Below, one piece after another: positions 1 through 9,336 of a stretch of DNA of 64,000 nt (its first letter is position 1; each line of letters starts with the position of its first letter). The notes below the pieces were generated by a model. The model worked only from the letters and a program-made list of their open reading frames with translations, had not been told where the DNA came from and made no database searches. The position numbers were made by a program, and so were the translations under genes. Source of the DNA: Fidelibacterota bacterium (GTDB lineage: Bacteria > Fidelibacterota > Marinisomatia > SCGC-AAA003-L08 > D37C17). The stretch is taken from the NCBI GenBank assembly GCA_004124405.1, contig SCKP01000001.1:1-64000 (forward strand), written 5' to 3'.

Positions 1-2
1 GC

Positions 3-80
3 AGCAGCAATTTGTTGACGGAATTGAAAGATCATGGAATACCGGAAAATAATTGTACTGTCTTTCATACAATAATTTGA
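3..80 (+). CDS. 3' end of an upstream gene (frame uncertain)
   Basis: Two frames are open from the window edge. One runs to a TGA at 78-80 and encodes about 25 residues with a helix-then-strand look (LLTELKDHGIPE). The other ends in TAA at 50-52 and encodes 16 residues. I favour the longer one, but there is too little sequence to name a family. Either would end 40-70 bases before the FliF-like gene on the same strand, so it is probably the preceding member of that operon and matters for interpreting it. Confidence 0.3.
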   Translation, partial: SSNLLTELKDHGIPENNCTVFHTII

Positions 81-119
81 ATGTATTAAATTTACTTATG
101 CTTAAACAGGAGCAAAACA

Positions 120-1409
120 ATGACCAATAAATTTGGCCGTAAACATCTATTCATTATAGCCCTCAGTGCTTTTCTCTGGAATCAGCAGGTAAACATCCTC
201 TCACAGAAAATTGCCATAGAAACTTCTTACCAGCAAAAAGTTACTTCTGCTGTATCCCGATTGTTGGGGCAGGAAAAAATTTGGGTGATCGTGAGCATTG
301 AATTTTCCTCCATTGGCGGCACCTTGAAAAAGGCTGCAGCATTACAATCAGGAACACGTTCATCCGGAGAATTTATTCCCGGTATACCTACAGTTCCATC
401 AATCCGGGGCACACGGTCCTCCTGGGGTTCCGCTTCCCAAACCCGTGGTGGAAATGACCTGGAAATTGGGCGGGTCGAAGTTACCATCGGAATGGACAAA
501 ACTTCCATTACCGTTACATTAAAACAAGAAATAAAATCATTGATTGAGAAAATAATTCCCCAGACAAAGGATTGTGACGATTGCATAAAAATTGAAGCCA
601 TGCAGTTTCAGACCAATCAAAAAAATGTGGAAATAGAAAAATTAAGGAAAGAATTAGATTCATTACAGGCAGAGATAAGGGCCTCTAAATTAGATGCTGA
701 TTCCCAACGATTGAAAGATTTGGATACTCAACTAACTGAAGTGCGGAATAGAAGAGATCAATTAGAGTCCATTGAAAACCTCCGCAAGCTCCAACAAATT
801 AAAGAAGATTCCCTTCGATTTGTCCAATTGGTAGCAGCAGAAAGGGTACGTAAAACTCAAGATTCTCTCAAATTTGTCAATACTGAAAAACGCCTTGAAC
901 GGGTTATGGAAAGCAAAATTAAATCTGACTCCGTCATTATACATGAAACCCTCAGTATTGTAAAACAGCAAGCTGGCGGTGGTAAGGAAGACGAATCTCT
1001 ATTGGGTATGCAGCTTGGCAGTAGCGGCTCAGGAATAATGGGGTCTGTTATTTTTATTTTACTTATCATTGCTCTCATGGTTGTGACCTATTTGGTTGCC
1101 AGCAATAAAAGGCCAAAAACAATCTATTTAAAACCAAAGAGTAAAGAAAAGGAAAAAGCTAAAGACAAAAAGGGGGGCAAGAAGAAAAAAGCTGGCGAGG
1201 CAGAACCAGAAGAATCCCCTGAACCGGCTGCACCTACACCTCCTCGCCCGGATGAAGATGCCATGCGTTCTGAGCTCCGCTCATTAAGACAGACTGCTGT
1301 GTCGCTTACCGTAGGGGAAAAAGAGGGAGCATCTGCCCTCATTAAAGAATGGCTGGAGGATAATCCTAATAAATCTGACGAAGGTGAAGAAGAGGCTGGA
1401 GAAGAATAA
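120..1409 (+). CDS. FliF-like MS-ring protein, reduced form
   Basis: Probable membrane ring protein related to flagellar FliF. Residues 1-28 form an N-terminal signal or membrane segment. Residues ~36-63 (SYQQKVTSAVSRLLGQEKIW, then a strand) look like the first half of the FliF ring-building motif 3. A Ser/Gly/Thr-rich stretch at ~65-112 sits where the beta-collar insertion lies, and the second half follows at ~113-165. A long charged coiled coil (~165-290), a membrane helix (~311-332) and a Lys-rich cytoplasmic stretch come next. The tail (EGASALIKEWLEDNP) resembles the FliF helix that binds FliG. FliF is normally ~550 residues; ring motifs 1 and 2 are not evident here and the coiled coil is additional. 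An AGGAG lies 7 bases before the ATG. The FliG-like gene starts 3 bases downstream. Known: FliF rings anchor FliG. Inferred: this pair forms a comparable ring and rotor. Confidence 0.68.
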   Translation: MTNKFGRKHLFIIALSAFLWNQQVNILSQKIAIETSYQQKVTSAVSRLLGQEKIWVIVSIEFSSIGGTLKKAAALQSGTRSSGEFIPGIPTVPSIRGTRSSWGSASQTRGGNDLEIGRVEVTIGMDKTSITVTLKQEIKSLIEKIIPQTKDCDDCIKIEAMQFQTNQKNVEIEKLRKELDSLQAEIRASKLDADSQRLKDLDTQLTEVRNRRDQLESIENLRKLQQIKEDSLRFVQLVAAERVRKTQDSLKFVNTEKRLERVMESKIKSDSVIIHETLSIVKQQAGGGKEDESLLGMQLGSSGSGIMGSVIFILLIIALMVVTYLVASNKRPKTIYLKPKSKEKEKAKDKKGGKKKKAGEAEPEESPEPAAPTPPRPDEDAMRSELRSLRQTAVSLTVGEKEGASALIKEWLEDNPNKSDEGEEEAGEE

Positions 1410-1412
1410 GTT

Positions 1413-2351
1413 ATGAAAACTAAAGAAGAATTAACCGGTTATGATAAGGTTGCTATCATTTTTGATATTTTAGGAGATTCTCTTTCCATTAATATGTTTA
1501 AAGATATTCCTGAAGCTGAGTTTTATAAAATACGGGATCATGCAAAAACCTTAAAAAATACCGTTCCAACAGCTGTAAAGAAGGAAGTGTTGGAAGATTA
1601 TTATTTCAAAATGCTTTCCAATGAGAAGTATAAAGATCAATCCAGTAGTGAAAAAATGTTTGAATTTCTTGAAGCTTTAGATGATGAACAACTCTTCGTA
1701 TTATTGTCACCGGAAAAACCCAGAGTAATTGCATTGGCATTAGAGCAAATTGACAATGAAAAAAGAATGACTTTTTTAGCTAAAGTTGATGTTGAAAAAC
1801 AAAATAAAATCGTTCTACAAACTGGCGATTTAAAAGATATTCCCCTTGAGGCAATTATACATACAGCAAAAGAACTCAAGAAAAAATCTGCTTTTCTTCC
1901 GGGGCCAGTTGAATTTTCACGAGGCGGCGGAAAATCAGTTTCAGAAATGCTTGGAAAGATGCCGGAAGATGATGCCAAAAAGTATTTAGATCAAATGAAA
2001 TTAGATAACCCTGGATTGTTCAGTGATGTTAAAAAATATTTTCTTTTATTCGATGACATCATCGCCATGCCGGACAGAATTGCTGCAACTTTTTGGGGAG
2101 ACCCAGAAATCGATTTAGAAATTATGGCAACCGCATTAGCTGATAGTGAAACCGAAGCAGTTGAAAAATTGCAGGGTTACCTTCCTGGGAAAAAGCAAGC
2201 TATGTTTACCCCAAAAACTGCAGAAGACAATGTATCAAAACGAGAAATTGACGAAGCAAAAGGGGAAATTAAGGATCAACTGCAGAAAAAATTTGATAGT
2301 GGCGATTTAAATATTGAAGATGTATTGGCAGCACCTGAAGTTGAAGTATAA
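1413..2351 (+). CDS. FliG-like rotor/switch protein
   Basis: Cytoplasmic protein of 312 residues (flagellar FliG is ~330-340) with the FliG layout. Residues ~6-65 match the N-terminal domain that binds FliF (LTGYDKVAIIFDILGDSL). Residues ~90-155 resemble the middle domain (LLSPEKPRVIALALEQIDNE, as in FliG HPQTIALIL). Residues ~170-270 resemble the C-terminal domain: a Gly-rich linker, then LFDDIIAMPDR and ALADSETEAVEKLQGYLP, like the FliG torque region. An acidic tail follows. The EHPQ-type motif is degenerate (SPEKPR) and the torque helix does not carry all the classical charged positions, so divergence is substantial. It sits 3 bases after the FliF-like gene and is followed by an intrinsic terminator, so the two are the last genes of their transcript. 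Confidence 0.68.
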   Translation: MKTKEELTGYDKVAIIFDILGDSLSINMFKDIPEAEFYKIRDHAKTLKNTVPTAVKKEVLEDYYFKMLSNEKYKDQSSSEKMFEFLEALDDEQLFVLLSPEKPRVIALALEQIDNEKRMTFLAKVDVEKQNKIVLQTGDLKDIPLEAIIHTAKELKKKSAFLPGPVEFSRGGGKSVSEMLGKMPEDDAKKYLDQMKLDNPGLFSDVKKYFLLFDDIIAMPDRIAATFWGDPEIDLEIMATALADSETEAVEKLQGYLPGKKQAMFTPKTAEDNVSKREIDEAKGEIKDQLQKKFDSGDLNIEDVLAAPEVEV

Positions 2352-2371
2352 AATAGCGTAAATTTTATTTT

Positions 2372-2402
2372 AAAAGTCTCCAGTTTTGTTGGGGGCTTTT
2401 TT
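2372..2402 (+). terminator. Intrinsic terminator after the FliG-like gene
   Basis: A 9-bp stem (2374-2382 with 2390-2398, including G-T pairs) and a 7-base loop run into TTTTTT at 2397-2402, starting 20 bases after the FliG-like stop codon. It closes the FliF/FliG-like transcript before the convergent uvrA gene. Confidence 0.75.
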
Positions 2403-5582: not shown

Positions 5583-6161
5583 TTAATTTGTCACAGCCGA
5601 TGTATCTGTTGGAATAGATGGCAAAGGCGGGATTTCCACTTTTGGTTTTTCTCCCCAATAGGTTTCTCTGGTGGAAAGCATATAGGTAACATTTTGATCG
5701 GCCAGATACACATTAGGATCGTTACCAACTCGAATATAGCTGCGAGAATAATCAGATTTTGATCGGCCGAAAACATAATATCCAACCGTTTCACCCTTAG
5801 AATTTATTACTGCTAAATGTGTACCGGTGGAATCATCCACAGAATACTTCCCGTATTTTTGGGGATTCTCAGAAATAATTGTGCCCCTGTTTACCTTTAA
5901 CACCTTTTGGAACAGGTTATCCATTGACCGGGGTTTAATCTCCAAGGTATCATTTCCGGAGATTCTCCAAAGTGTATCAACACGGGCAAGTTCAATTGCT
6001 TCTTCTCCTTTTTGAATTAGAAACTTAAAAATATCTTCCGGATCATTGGAAAAAATAGCCTCAGTTGAACTTTTATGTTTTGATTGAGAACTTTTATTAT
6101 AGAAAAATATTCCAATAAAAACTAAAAGAACAATCAATGCAAATTGTAGATTCTTAGCCAT
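5583..6161 (-). CDS. DUF4340-type accessory protein of the Gld-like ABC system
   Basis: A 192-residue protein with one N-terminal membrane helix (LQFALIVLLVFIGIFF) and a soluble remainder outside the cytoplasm, resembling the DUF4340 proteins usually encoded after GldG-like proteins. The frame is open 12 codons further upstream, but GGAGGAAATCT just before the ATG at 6161 fixes the start and gives an 8-base overlap with the GldG-like gene, a typical translational-coupling arrangement. It is the last gene of the four-gene operon. Its function is unknown in detail; a role as periplasmic partner of the ABC complex is inferred from gene order. The C-terminus is Pro-rich (KVEIPPLPSIP). Confidence 0.75.
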   Translation of the reverse strand: MAKNLQFALIVLLVFIGIFFYNKSSQSKHKSSTEAIFSNDPEDIFKFLIQKGEEAIELARVDTLWRISGNDTLEIKPRSMDNLFQKVLKVNRGTIISENPQKYGKYSVDDSTGTHLAVINSKGETVGYYVFGRSKSDYSRSYIRVGNDPNVYLADQNVTYMLSTRETYWGEKPKVEIPPLPSIPTDTSAVTN

Positions 6162-7683
6162 AGATTTCCTCCAAAACTTTTGCCCGGTTTTTTTCACGTC
6201 TCATTCTTAATCCGCCAAATGCTACTACAAGAAAAGATGGAAACAAAATATTTATCCATTTCCAGCGCGCTTTTACATCATCTTCTAATTCCTGCAGGGG
6301 CCGGTTGGTAATTTCACGACTTCTGAGAGATATCAACTCCCTGTCACCTAAGAGATAATCTACTGCATTCATAACAAAAATATGATTTTCAGGTGCGGCC
6401 CCACCTCCGTCATCAGCAATAAATTTAGAGTCTGAAATCAAAATCAATTGGCTTAAAGTACCATTTTCAGGATGGGTGATTTCTGCCAGTGCGCCCAATA
6501 CTTTTCCTGCTTCGTTTAACTGCCGGAAGGCGGGATTTGCTTTGGGATCAGGATTCAAATTAAAAAACTCTTCCATTGTTGTAGATCGGTTAGAACTTGT
6601 AAATAAGGGAATGATATTGACATTTTCAACACCAGCCATGCTATCATTAATTATAATTTCACTTGGAAACATCAAGCGCACAGACTCTAAACCATTGACC
6701 ATAACCACTTCATCATTAAAATTACCCTCTTTAATAATGGGCAAAAAAGGATAACTCATGGGAACAGGAATGCGAATGAACCCCAAATTCTGCTGTACAT
6801 TCACCTTACCGCAATTCTGATCCAGAACCAGGTTGGGTGCAATATGTAAGCCATACGAATCCAGCAGTGAATATATATCTGACACTACCGGATTTGCCTG
6901 TTGAGTAGCAAGATCCGTTTTAATTCTGTTCTGGGCTAAAAGTACATTCCCACCCCGATTAATAAAATCTTCTAAATTTTGGCGCTCATCTATAGTTAAT
7001 GAATCCTCCACACCATTTATTAAAAGTAAGGAAATATTTCCAGCAACTGCCTGGCTCAGATTTATATTTCGAATATTGTAGCGTTGAGCCAATAGCTGAG
7101 AGATATTCTGATTTTTAATTTGTTCCTGACCCTCTGTTTTAGCTATGGCAATAGTTTCCTTATTAGTATCCACCAATTTTTTAATTTTCGTGGTAATGTC
7201 ATATTCCAATCCGGTAGTGGTTTGGATTACCGGAATAGTTTCCCGTTCATCTTCATAGAGGAAAACCATGCCCATATAGACCCGTTTTATTTCAATATTA
7301 TCATTTTCAATAACTTGTAATTGCACTGGCTGAATTCCTGACTTCTGGGCCTCTTCCTGCATTTTTTCATCATCATCTGTATGGTAGAATTCAAAATGGA
7401 TATTCCCATTAGAATAAGCTACATACTCTTCTAGTATATCTTGAAGGTATCTCCGGTTATTTCCATATTCTCCAGGGAGATTATCAGAAAAATATACTTT
7501 CATTGTGAGTCTGTCATCAATTTTTCCTACAACCGATTTACTAGAGTCCGATAAACTGTACATTTTGTTTTCAGTTAAATCCCATCTGAAAAACAAATTT
7601 CTGGACACAATATTTAAAAGAACTAAGATAGCTACTACTATCCCAATATATGACAAAAACGATTTTTTATTTTGAGTACTCAT
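6154..7683 (-). CDS. GldG-like ABC-associated periplasmic protein
   Basis: About 509 residues: an N-terminal membrane helix (~10-28), a large extracytoplasmic region with the GldG-type opening (FFRWDLTENKMYSLSDSSK, then a segment like KVYFSDNLPGEYG), and a C-terminal membrane helix (~480-497) followed by a charged tail. This is the layout of the GldG/COG3225 family. In Bacteroidetes GldG belongs to the GldA-GldF-GldG ABC complex needed for gliding; elsewhere homologues have no proven role. A GTG 12 bases upstream overlaps the ribosome-binding site, so the ATG at 7683 with GGAGGT ahead of it is the better start. It follows the permease by 2 bases and overlaps the DUF4340 gene. Confidence 0.85.
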   Translation of the reverse strand: MSTQNKKSFLSYIGIVVAILVLLNIVSRNLFFRWDLTENKMYSLSDSSKSVVGKIDDRLTMKVYFSDNLPGEYGNNRRYLQDILEEYVAYSNGNIHFEFYHTDDDEKMQEEAQKSGIQPVQLQVIENDNIEIKRVYMGMVFLYEDERETIPVIQTTTGLEYDITTKIKKLVDTNKETIAIAKTEGQEQIKNQNISQLLAQRYNIRNINLSQAVAGNISLLLINGVEDSLTIDERQNLEDFINRGGNVLLAQNRIKTDLATQQANPVVSDIYSLLDSYGLHIAPNLVLDQNCGKVNVQQNLGFIRIPVPMSYPFLPIIKEGNFNDEVVMVNGLESVRLMFPSEIIINDSMAGVENVNIIPLFTSSNRSTTMEEFFNLNPDPKANPAFRQLNEAGKVLGALAEITHPENGTLSQLILISDSKFIADDGGGAAPENHIFVMNAVDYLLGDRELISLRSREITNRPLQELEDDVKARWKWINILFPSFLVVAFGGLRMRREKNRAKVLEEIYG

Positions 7684-7685
7684 TG

Positions 7686-8399
7686 TTATTTCCACCTCCG
7701 AATTTCTAACATACGAACTGTCATAAACAAAAATAATCCTACAACCGAAGCAAAGTAAATAAGATTCCTGCTATCAATCACCCCTCTTGAAATGTTAGAC
7801 AGATGATAATCAACACTTAGATACTGTATAATTCCTGTGAGCGATACAGGAACAAACATGAGCATTTTATCCATAAGAAAGAAAATAAGCACAATAAATA
7901 TCCCTATAATAAATGCCACTACCTGATTATCGGTGAGACTGCTGGCGAAAATACCCACAGCAGAATACACAGCACCTGCAAGAGCAAGTCCTAGATATCC
8001 AGTGAAAACTGCACCATAATCTATATTGGTTCCAACTTGGGTTAAAGTTATAAAGTGTACCAGTGAAATTAGTAAACCCGCCAATACCAAACTCAGAGCT
8101 GCCAGAAATTTTCCCACCACAAAATCCAAATCTCTTAATGGCAGGGTGGACATCACTTCCATAGTTCCAATATTTTTTTCTCGAGCAATGAGACTCATGG
8201 TTATTGCTGGTATGAAAAAGAGGTAGACCAGGGGAATTATGTTAAACAGAGAGCGCATGTCCGACTGGTTAAAAAGGAAAAAGGTCCGCGTGAAAAAATA
8301 TCCTGTAATAACAGCAAATATGACCAGGAATATATATGCCATTGGGCTGTTAAAATAGGACTTCATTTCTTTAAAGTAAATGGCTTTCAAGTTACGCAT
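7686..8399 (-). CDS. ABC-2 type permease, GldF-like
   Basis: A 237-residue integral membrane protein with six predicted hydrophobic helices. The family hallmark PAITMSLIAREKNIGTMEVM lies between helices 2 and 3, followed by LPLRDLDFVVGKF. This matches ABC-2 permeases of the GldF/COG1277 type, which pair with the ATPase encoded immediately upstream. The start overlaps the end of the ATPase gene by 8 bases, and the GldG-like gene follows at once, so the stoichiometry is probably set by translational coupling. The substrate is unknown. Confidence 0.88.
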   Translation of the reverse strand: MRNLKAIYFKEMKSYFNSPMAYIFLVIFAVITGYFFTRTFFLFNQSDMRSLFNIIPLVYLFFIPAITMSLIAREKNIGTMEVMSTLPLRDLDFVVGKFLAALSLVLAGLLISLVHFITLTQVGTNIDYGAVFTGYLGLALAGAVYSAVGIFASSLTDNQVVAFIIGIFIVLIFFLMDKMLMFVPVSLTGIIQYLSVDYHLSNISRGVIDSRNLIYFASVVGLFLFMTVRMLEIRRWK

Positions 8400-9336
8400 T
8401 TGCCTTGTCCTCCATTGTGAGGGTTCGGAATATTGATTCCAGATTTACACTGTGAGGAGTCATCTCTGTCACTACCCAATTAGAATCTATGGCATATTGA
8501 AATAGTTCCTCGCGGGGATCTTTTTCTTTTGGATATTCTAAATGAAGTGTTTGAGATCCATTTTTTGTTGTTGTGTCAACTAAACTGATGGATGGAATTT
8601 TTTCTGTTAGTGCTTTTACAGTACTATCTTCTGCATTTTTAATTTCCAAAGTAAGTTTTGTATTTCCCATAAACCCACTCATGAGCTCTTCATTGGTTCC
8701 ATCAGCTACAATTTCCCCTTTATGAATTATAATTATTCTATTTACTGTTGCTTGTATTTCCTGTAAAATATGGCTGGACATTAACACCAGTTTTTCTGTT
8801 CCCAAATCTTTGATGAGATTGCGAATTTCTACAATCTGGTTTGGGTCGAGACCGGTAACTGGTTCATCAAGTATGAGAATTTTGGGGTCATGAATCATTG
8901 CACAAGCCAGGCCAATTCTCTGTTTGTATCCCTTTGAACATTCAGAAATCATTCTATGTATGACTCCTTTTAATCCACACTGTTCTATTACTCGAGCCAA
9001 AGAATTTTTAAATGCTTTTCCAGTTATGTTACGGATATTTCCGGTGAATTCCAGCAAATCATACACTCGCATTTCAGGGTATAAGGGATTCAATTCCGGG
9101 AGGTATCCGATTTGTTTTTGGATTTCGAGAGTATTTGTCTGGATGTCCAATTCATTTACATAAACATTGCCCGATGTTGGAGTAAGGTACCCCGTCATCA
9201 CTTTTAAGGTGGTGGATTTACCTGCACCGTTTGCCCCTAAAAATCCAACAATCTCACCGTCGTTTAATTCAAAATTAATGGATTTAACGGCTTTAATATC
9301 ACCGTAAGACTTGGAAAGATTTTCAACTTTTATCAT
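8392..9336 (-). CDS. ABC transporter ATP-binding protein, GldA-like
   Basis: Nucleotide-binding subunit of the Gld-type ABC system, 314 residues. Visible motifs: Walker A GANGAGKSTTLKVMTGYL near residue 35, Q-loop (IGYLPE), a slightly unusual signature (CSKGYKQRIGLA where many have LSKGMKQR), Walker B (ILILDEPVTGLDP), and the H-loop histidine (MSSHIL). The C-terminal ~90 residues resemble the accessory domain seen in COG1131 ATPases. It is the first gene of the four-gene minus-strand operon, with AGGA before the ATG. Confidence 0.93.
   Translation of the reverse strand: MIKVENLSKSYGDIKAVKSINFELNDGEIVGFLGANGAGKSTTLKVMTGYLTPTSGNVYVNELDIQTNTLEIQKQIGYLPELNPLYPEMRVYDLLEFTGNIRNITGKAFKNSLARVIEQCGLKGVIHRMISECSKGYKQRIGLACAMIHDPKILILDEPVTGLDPNQIVEIRNLIKDLGTEKLVLMSSHILQEIQATVNRIIIIHKGEIVADGTNEELMSGFMGNTKLTLEIKNAEDSTVKALTEKIPSISLVDTTTKNGSQTLHLEYPKEKDPREELFQYAIDSNWVVTEMTPHSVNLESIFRTLTMEDKANA

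Follow-up and report, generated by a model that had tools for sequence, protein, structure and literature searches.

By common understanding FliF and FliG belong to the flagellum, the machine in which a FliG rotor is turned by MotAB. What, then, might a compact fliF-fliG pair at the edge of a Fidelibacterota contig be for? We addressed this question in a stretch of 64,000 nucleotides (hereafter the window, G000:C6:1-64000), the opening 64 kb of a 142-kb contig from MAG G000, which is 1.66 Mb in size and 92% complete. The Fidelibacterota, also named Marinimicrobia, Candidatus Marinimicrobia, Neomarinimicrobiota or SAR406, are mostly uncultured and widespread, and their habitats are largely marine and subsurface. 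Our analysis suggests, with a probability that we put at about 0.72, that the pair belongs to an operon dedicated to a rotary envelope motor that is driven by ions and is not part of a flagellum.

The FliF-like and FliG-like proteins

The original prediction described two adjacent genes with a 3-base gap and one terminator, and this arrangement was recovered, with the fliF-like and fliG-like ORFs separated by 3 bp and followed by a terminator-like hairpin (Table 1).

Table 1. Features at the start of the window, in window coordinates.
Feature	Position	Strand	Basis or remark
motB 3' end (final codons and stop)	1..54	+	remainder of gene on contig C11
FliF-like protein, 429 aa	120..1409	+	predicted signal peptide, RBM3, coiled coil, single TM helix, FliG-binding-type tail
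RBM3 domain, residues 29-164	204..611	+	AlphaFold topology; Foldseek matches to FliF RBM3 rings; PF08345 in orthologues
Collar-like insert in RBM3, residues 63-113	306..458	+	AlphaFold topology
Long helix/coiled coil, residues 165-284, predicted periplasmic	612..971	+	pLDDT 84-93 block, residues 171-240
Transmembrane helix, residues 307-327	1038..1100	+	Kyte-Doolittle peak 2.9; helix in AlphaFold model
C-terminal FliG-binding-type helix, residues 379-413, ...SLTVGEKEGASALIKEWLED	1254..1358	+	alignment to 8z5s tail; W411
FliG-like protein, 312 aa, three domains	1413..2351	+	Pfam FliG_N/M/C over cut-off; PDB 1lkv
FliG N domain	1428..1688	+	Pfam
FliG M domain	1686..1886	+	Pfam
FliG C domain	1992..2315	+	Pfam
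Intrinsic-terminator-like hairpin at operon end	2372..2400	+	13 pairs, loop 3, T-rich tail

The downstream protein had been read as a complete three-domain FliG, and the searches agree. The Pfam domains FliG_N, FliG_M and FliG_C all score over their curated cut-offs and the protein matches PDB FliG 1lkv with an E-value of 1.3e-11. The flagellar equivalog cut-off of TIGR00207 (226.7 bits) was not reached, the window FliG scoring 61.7 bits and that of locus L054 112.7 bits.

The upstream protein gave no usable match when the window sequence alone was used in single-sequence family and PDB searches, so profiles of its orthologues were required. The orthologues match YscJ_FliF_C (PF08345) in six of 19 members, with a best E-value of 2.6e-9; one passes the cut-off and the others score under it. 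They match TIGR00206 (fliF) only from about profile position 240 onward, i.e. over RBM3 only. With the family profile, the FliF M-ring chain 8z5s is matched at 4.2e-5, and the match extends over the C-terminal helix that binds FliG; the family consensus aligns with the 8z5s tail ALVANEPELAAQVVKNWMND, and W411 is invariant in 19 sequences. An AlphaFold model of modest overall confidence (pLDDT 58) has the topology helix-strand-[~50-residue insert]-strand-helix-strand, after which come a helix of 120 residues, one in the membrane and one at the C-terminus. In the Foldseek search that had been suggested for this protein, FliF MS-ring structures were the first 14 matches and most of the best ones.

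Both families were therefore matched by profiles, and an RBM3 domain and a C-terminal helix of the FliG-binding type are predicted in the FliF-like protein, the N-terminus of which looks like a signal peptide. The architecture of RBM1-RBM2 with two TM helices was not found, since the match starts at about position 240 and there is one internal TM helix. Profiles, AlphaFold and Foldseek thus agree with the proposal of a shortened MS-ring protein that lacks ring motifs 1 and 2 and has an RBM3 split by an insert, a coiled coil, a TM helix and a tail helix. The extra coiled coil, estimated at ~125 residues, corresponds to the helix of ~120 residues in the model. RBM1-2 surround the export gate in flagella, and a FliF without them fits the absence of such a gate.

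Elsewhere in the window, an ABC ATPase, an ABC permease and a GldG-like protein follow one another on the minus strand (6157-9336, identified by eye). We take this trio to be of a type often annotated as a gliding-related transporter in FCB bacteria.

An operon with stator and envelope genes

The fliF-fliG pair forms the last two genes of a seven- to eight-gene operon, with the order secreted lipoprotein, TPR protein (one or two), beta-barrel/TPR protein, MotA, MotB, FliF and FliG. Most gaps are short, and contig ends truncate some of the loci; the flanking genes vary between families, which defines the limits of the operon. Motor-gene neighbours are missing from the window because the contig edge cuts the operon inside motB, and the first 54 nucleotides translate to ...QQQFVDGIERSWNTGK*, which aligns with the C-terminus of MotB in relatives. 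The rest of the G000 operon lies on the minus strand of contig C11 (189-4914). The end of this contig contains the remaining motB and overlaps the start of the window (1-308) by about 309 bp at 95% identity, and the assembly break is probably due to strain variation.

Extending the locus upstream, as had been advised, brought in MotA and MotB stator genes; no full flagellar cluster lies directly upstream, where MotAB and the envelope genes are found instead. The claim that no other flagellar gene occurs nearby held in part. No FlhA and no FliM/FliN were found in the whole MAG or in family f1, but the motB end had been overlooked. In the module MotA gene of G000 (L128:1285-2076), a TGA interrupts the frame close to the 3' end, where relatives are open, and this may be a mixed-strain assembly effect or a real lesion.

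Module MotA matches PF01618 (down to 4e-28) and PDB MotA (1e-62), and module MotB matches MotB_plug and OmpA over their cut-offs and PDB MotB (3e-44). With E. coli as reference, D32 of MotB is present in 48 of 48 sequences; in MotA, P173 and P222 are present in 39 of 39, R90 in 38 of 39 and E98 in 31 of 39. On the rotor side, FliG position 281 (E. coli numbering) is K or R in all 39 module sequences and K264 is kept in 33, the window having A at this position. The acidic pair D288/D289, which contacts MotA in E. coli, is kept in a minority (D288 in 11/39) and replaced in most of the window's class, the window included. With this pair lost in many members of the class and K264 lost in the window, the torque contacts there must differ. 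The H and Q of the EHPQ FliM-binding motif are unconserved in the 39 module FliGs and kept in 17-18 of 18 flagellar FliGs. As the channel and stator residues are kept and EHPQ is lost, the ion channel and stator-rotor coupling appear to be selected and the switching and export functions appear to be gone; the absence of RBM1-2 and EHPQ is as expected without an export gate and switch.

These observations also bear on whether the ring turns at all. RBM3-type rings occur in non-rotating complexes and SpoIIIAG forms an RBM3-like ring in sporulation, so FliF and FliG might be a static scaffold or channel of that kind with MotAB acting separately. We consider this decidedly unlikely, as MotAB, FliF and FliG share one operon and both the FliF tail motif and the stator contact residues are retained.

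The envelope proteins are less readily classified. The beta-barrel/TPR protein has ~450 residues, with a predicted barrel followed by C-terminal TPRs. A 12-strand meander is predicted and its hydrophobicity alternation exceeds all 2000 shuffles; the AlphaFold model, for which four close sequences were usable, has a pLDDT of 32, and the assignment as an outer-membrane barrel is tentative. In the lipoprotein, the signal-peptide cysteine was seen by eye in most members and is missing in families f7-f19. The best NCBIfam match of the module TPR protein is YbgF. In three distant families an apparently similar protein of ~380 residues lies directly upstream of the operon (L090:14046-15185, L098:2532-3686 and L101:2863-3990).

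Further stator genes occur outside the operon. G000 has a second, stand-alone MotA-MotB pair (L127:9561-11048, contig C62), the neighbours of which encode a hybrid histidine kinase and a cyclase-domain response regulator. Its MotA has close orthologues in G001, G002 and G026 only, and the pair may serve the same rotor as an alternative stator. A further MotA (177 bits) is encoded ~7-8 kb downstream of the module in G122, a genome of one contig (G122:C1:144147-144899; L145:19148-19900).

Distribution and separation from flagella

Across the phylum we met the operon again in 39 other genomes, made up of 38 surveyed loci that represent all sampled classes (20 in relatives and 18 in genomes of other classes) and G122, which has the entire operon and lacks FlhA. 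The gene order is conserved in this synteny survey, which the original prediction had proposed, including in genomes without FlhA. A FliG profile search gave matches in 169 of 245 phylum genomes. Taking E below 1e-35 as module-form FliG and weaker matches as flagellar FliG, we counted the module form in about 156 of the 245 genomes and the module lipoprotein, at E < 1e-35, in 164, figures that describe a species sample and are no census of bacteria. The reduced family f6 is without the module. Among ~147 genomes from other phyla, the sole lipoprotein match below 1e-35 was in G325. The module there (G325:C15, L150) lies on a contig of 15 kb whose neighbouring genes are those of Marinimicrobia family f1, and we treated it as misbinned.

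In a FliG tree, 39 module sequences split from 19 flagellar sequences, E. coli and Treponema included, at 100/100 support. The module side largely tracks the taxonomy of the phylum, as expected of old vertical inheritance, and some terminal branches are long. Between close species the FliG substitutions fall mostly at third codon positions, and FliF evolves faster than FliG among close relatives.

Using lack of FlhA as a proxy for lack of a flagellum, we found the module INDEPENDENCE from flagella, with FlhA missing in 97 of the 127 module genomes tested (65/81 in the first 120 relatives and 32/46 in other classes). Flagellated members have, in addition, a flagellar locus that carries a separate FliG and, on contigs that extend far enough, a separate MotAB; the FliG scores form two groups, 288-468 bits for the module and 111-151 bits for the flagellar copies. 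Each of the four motor proteins has flagellar homologues, and it could be argued that the operon is a remnant, in which rotor and stator genes outlasted a lost flagellum through inertia or because they serve some minor role. We regard this as very improbable and largely refuted. The gene order is constant across the phylum, flagellated members retain both gene sets, the module FliG forms a separate deep clade in which close species differ mainly at third codon positions, and the channel and stator residues are conserved. The proposal of a non-flagellar rotor module is therefore strengthened, as the rotor genes share an operon with a dedicated MotAB stator and with three envelope proteins, and the module is conserved across the phylum and stands apart from true flagella.

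A proposed envelope motor and its possible outputs

In the motor that we propose, a stator of the MotA5-MotB2 type, anchored to peptidoglycan through the OmpA domain of MotB, would be turned by ion flow, as its conserved residues suggest. MotA would engage the C-terminal domain of FliG, and FliG would be seated on the FliF tail, contacts to which the residues and the tail motif point. FliF would form an RBM3 ring; lacking RBM1-2 it would house no export gate, and lacking FliM/FliN the rotor would not be switched by CheY. The helix of ~120 residues between the membrane and RBM3 (~18 nm at 0.15 nm per residue) could raise the ring toward the outer membrane and act as a torque-transmitting shaft or cage. 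The conservation of the operon suggests that the raised ring would there meet the beta-barrel/TPR protein, the lipoprotein and the TPR protein, and the first two of these may receive the motion. The RBM3-to-TM spacer is 128-215 aa in 36 of 39 sequences and just 43-46 aa in family f25, to which the idea of a shaft reaching the outer membrane cannot apply unchanged. It is conceivable, at somewhat less than even odds, that the operon represents a new class of trans-envelope machine, in which MotAB-FliF-FliG torque passes via the coiled coil to an outer-membrane barrel and powers T9SS-like secretion or another outer-membrane process throughout the phylum.

MotAB-related stators are known outside flagella in AglRQS and ZorAB, and GldLM is analogous; among such systems we found none that is paired with FliF/FliG. 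The module shares with the flagellar motor MotA, MotB, the RBM3 and FliG-binding tail of FliF, a three-domain FliG and key stator residues. It differs in having no FliM/FliN or FlhA-type export gate, in a FliF without RBM1-2 but with a long coiled coil, in the loss of EHPQ, in the added outer-membrane barrel/TPR protein, lipoprotein and TPR protein, and in standing beside a true flagellum in some genomes. GldLM/PorLM of type IX secretion is also an ion-driven envelope motor reaching outer-membrane partners, and T9SS parts occur in the phylum, but the module is built of MotAB, FliF and FliG and a link to T9SS is conjecture. In Agl-Glt of Myxococcus, too, TPR proteins and outer-membrane barrels accompany a motor of the stator family, whereas AglRQS is TolQR-like and has no FliF/FliG rotor. 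Tol-Pal shares the stator family, OmpA-type peptidoglycan binding and a YbgF-like TPR protein; the module has MotA instead of TolQ, no TolB_N, and a rotor. Zorya likewise uses a MotAB-related stator outside flagella, but has effectors where the module has a FliF/FliG rotor and outer-membrane genes. We rejected an assignment to Zorya, as MotA gave no ZorA match and FliF, FliG and the barrel protein no Zor match, while the MotB-ZorB score arises via shared domains.

The candidate outputs of the motor are T9SS-like secretion, Tol-like envelope work and gliding, of which we place the first foremost. GldLM energises the T9SS and surface-protein movement in Bacteroidota, and the module could replace it in energising T9SS-like secretion or surface-protein movement, a role that we consider possible but doubtful. 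A SprA/Sov-type translocon is present in G122 (L135:6303-12422, TIGR04189, 823 bits), and G000 has PorV-family, PorU-like and sorting-domain proteins. A motif screen of 2.7 Mb of sequence detected neither GldL nor GldM, and inspection of 1.11 Mb, two thirds of the 1.66-Mb G000, yielded no candidate for either. However, among the neighbours at L090, L098 and L101, inspected by eye, no T9SS gene adjoins the module. T9SS sorting-domain proteins were already reported in SAR406 (PMC5596340), and a 2017 review called the T9SS exclusive to Bacteroidetes (PMC5445135). The SprA of G122 is a T9SS translocon outside Bacteroidota.

Rotation might instead move the outer-membrane barrel or attached adhesins, giving gliding or surface motility comparable to Agl-Glt or GldLM-SprB. 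A stator with TPR protein, outer-membrane barrel and lipoprotein resembles gliding machines in outline (gliding review PMC13104615), and T9SS sorting-domain proteins are present. This seems unlikely, as Fidelibacter multiformis IA91, the phylum's cultured type strain, has been reported to lack motility (PMC11652737). Of the earlier suggestion of a rotor for surface motility or another process, the non-flagellar rotor stands and surface motility becomes one option among several.

We are similarly sceptical of a Tol-Pal-like motor that would coordinate the outer membrane with peptidoglycan or serve lipid or lipoprotein traffic. G000 has ExbB-ExbD-ExbD-TonB and no TolQ among its PF01618 (MotA/ExbB-family) proteins, and TolB_N is missing in G000 and family f1 (TolB was searched in 100 genomes, TolQ in G000 only). 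The YbgF match of the TPR protein points the same way, but TolB-type propeller proteins exist in G000, and family f6 and others live without the module.

The module is real and conserved and has apparently been unrecognised until now. We found no report of a non-flagellar FliF/FliG/MotAB operon in the open-licence literature searched, and the portions consulted of a MotAB phylogeny paper (PMC12505986), a flagellar-loss survey (PMC12199754) and the 2026 gliding review (PMC13104615) describe no non-flagellar FliF/FliG system. Matches to FliG, FliF or MotAB alone are no proof that a genome is flagellated. A stator and rotor without export gate, switch and filament suggest that the engine is separable from the organelle, and the module bears on the evolution of the flagellum and the possible reuse of its parts. 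It is also a candidate for what powers processes at the outer membrane in a phylum that is widespread and for the most part uncultured. If the trans-envelope reading is true, this would be the first known FliF/FliG rotor operating outside flagella.
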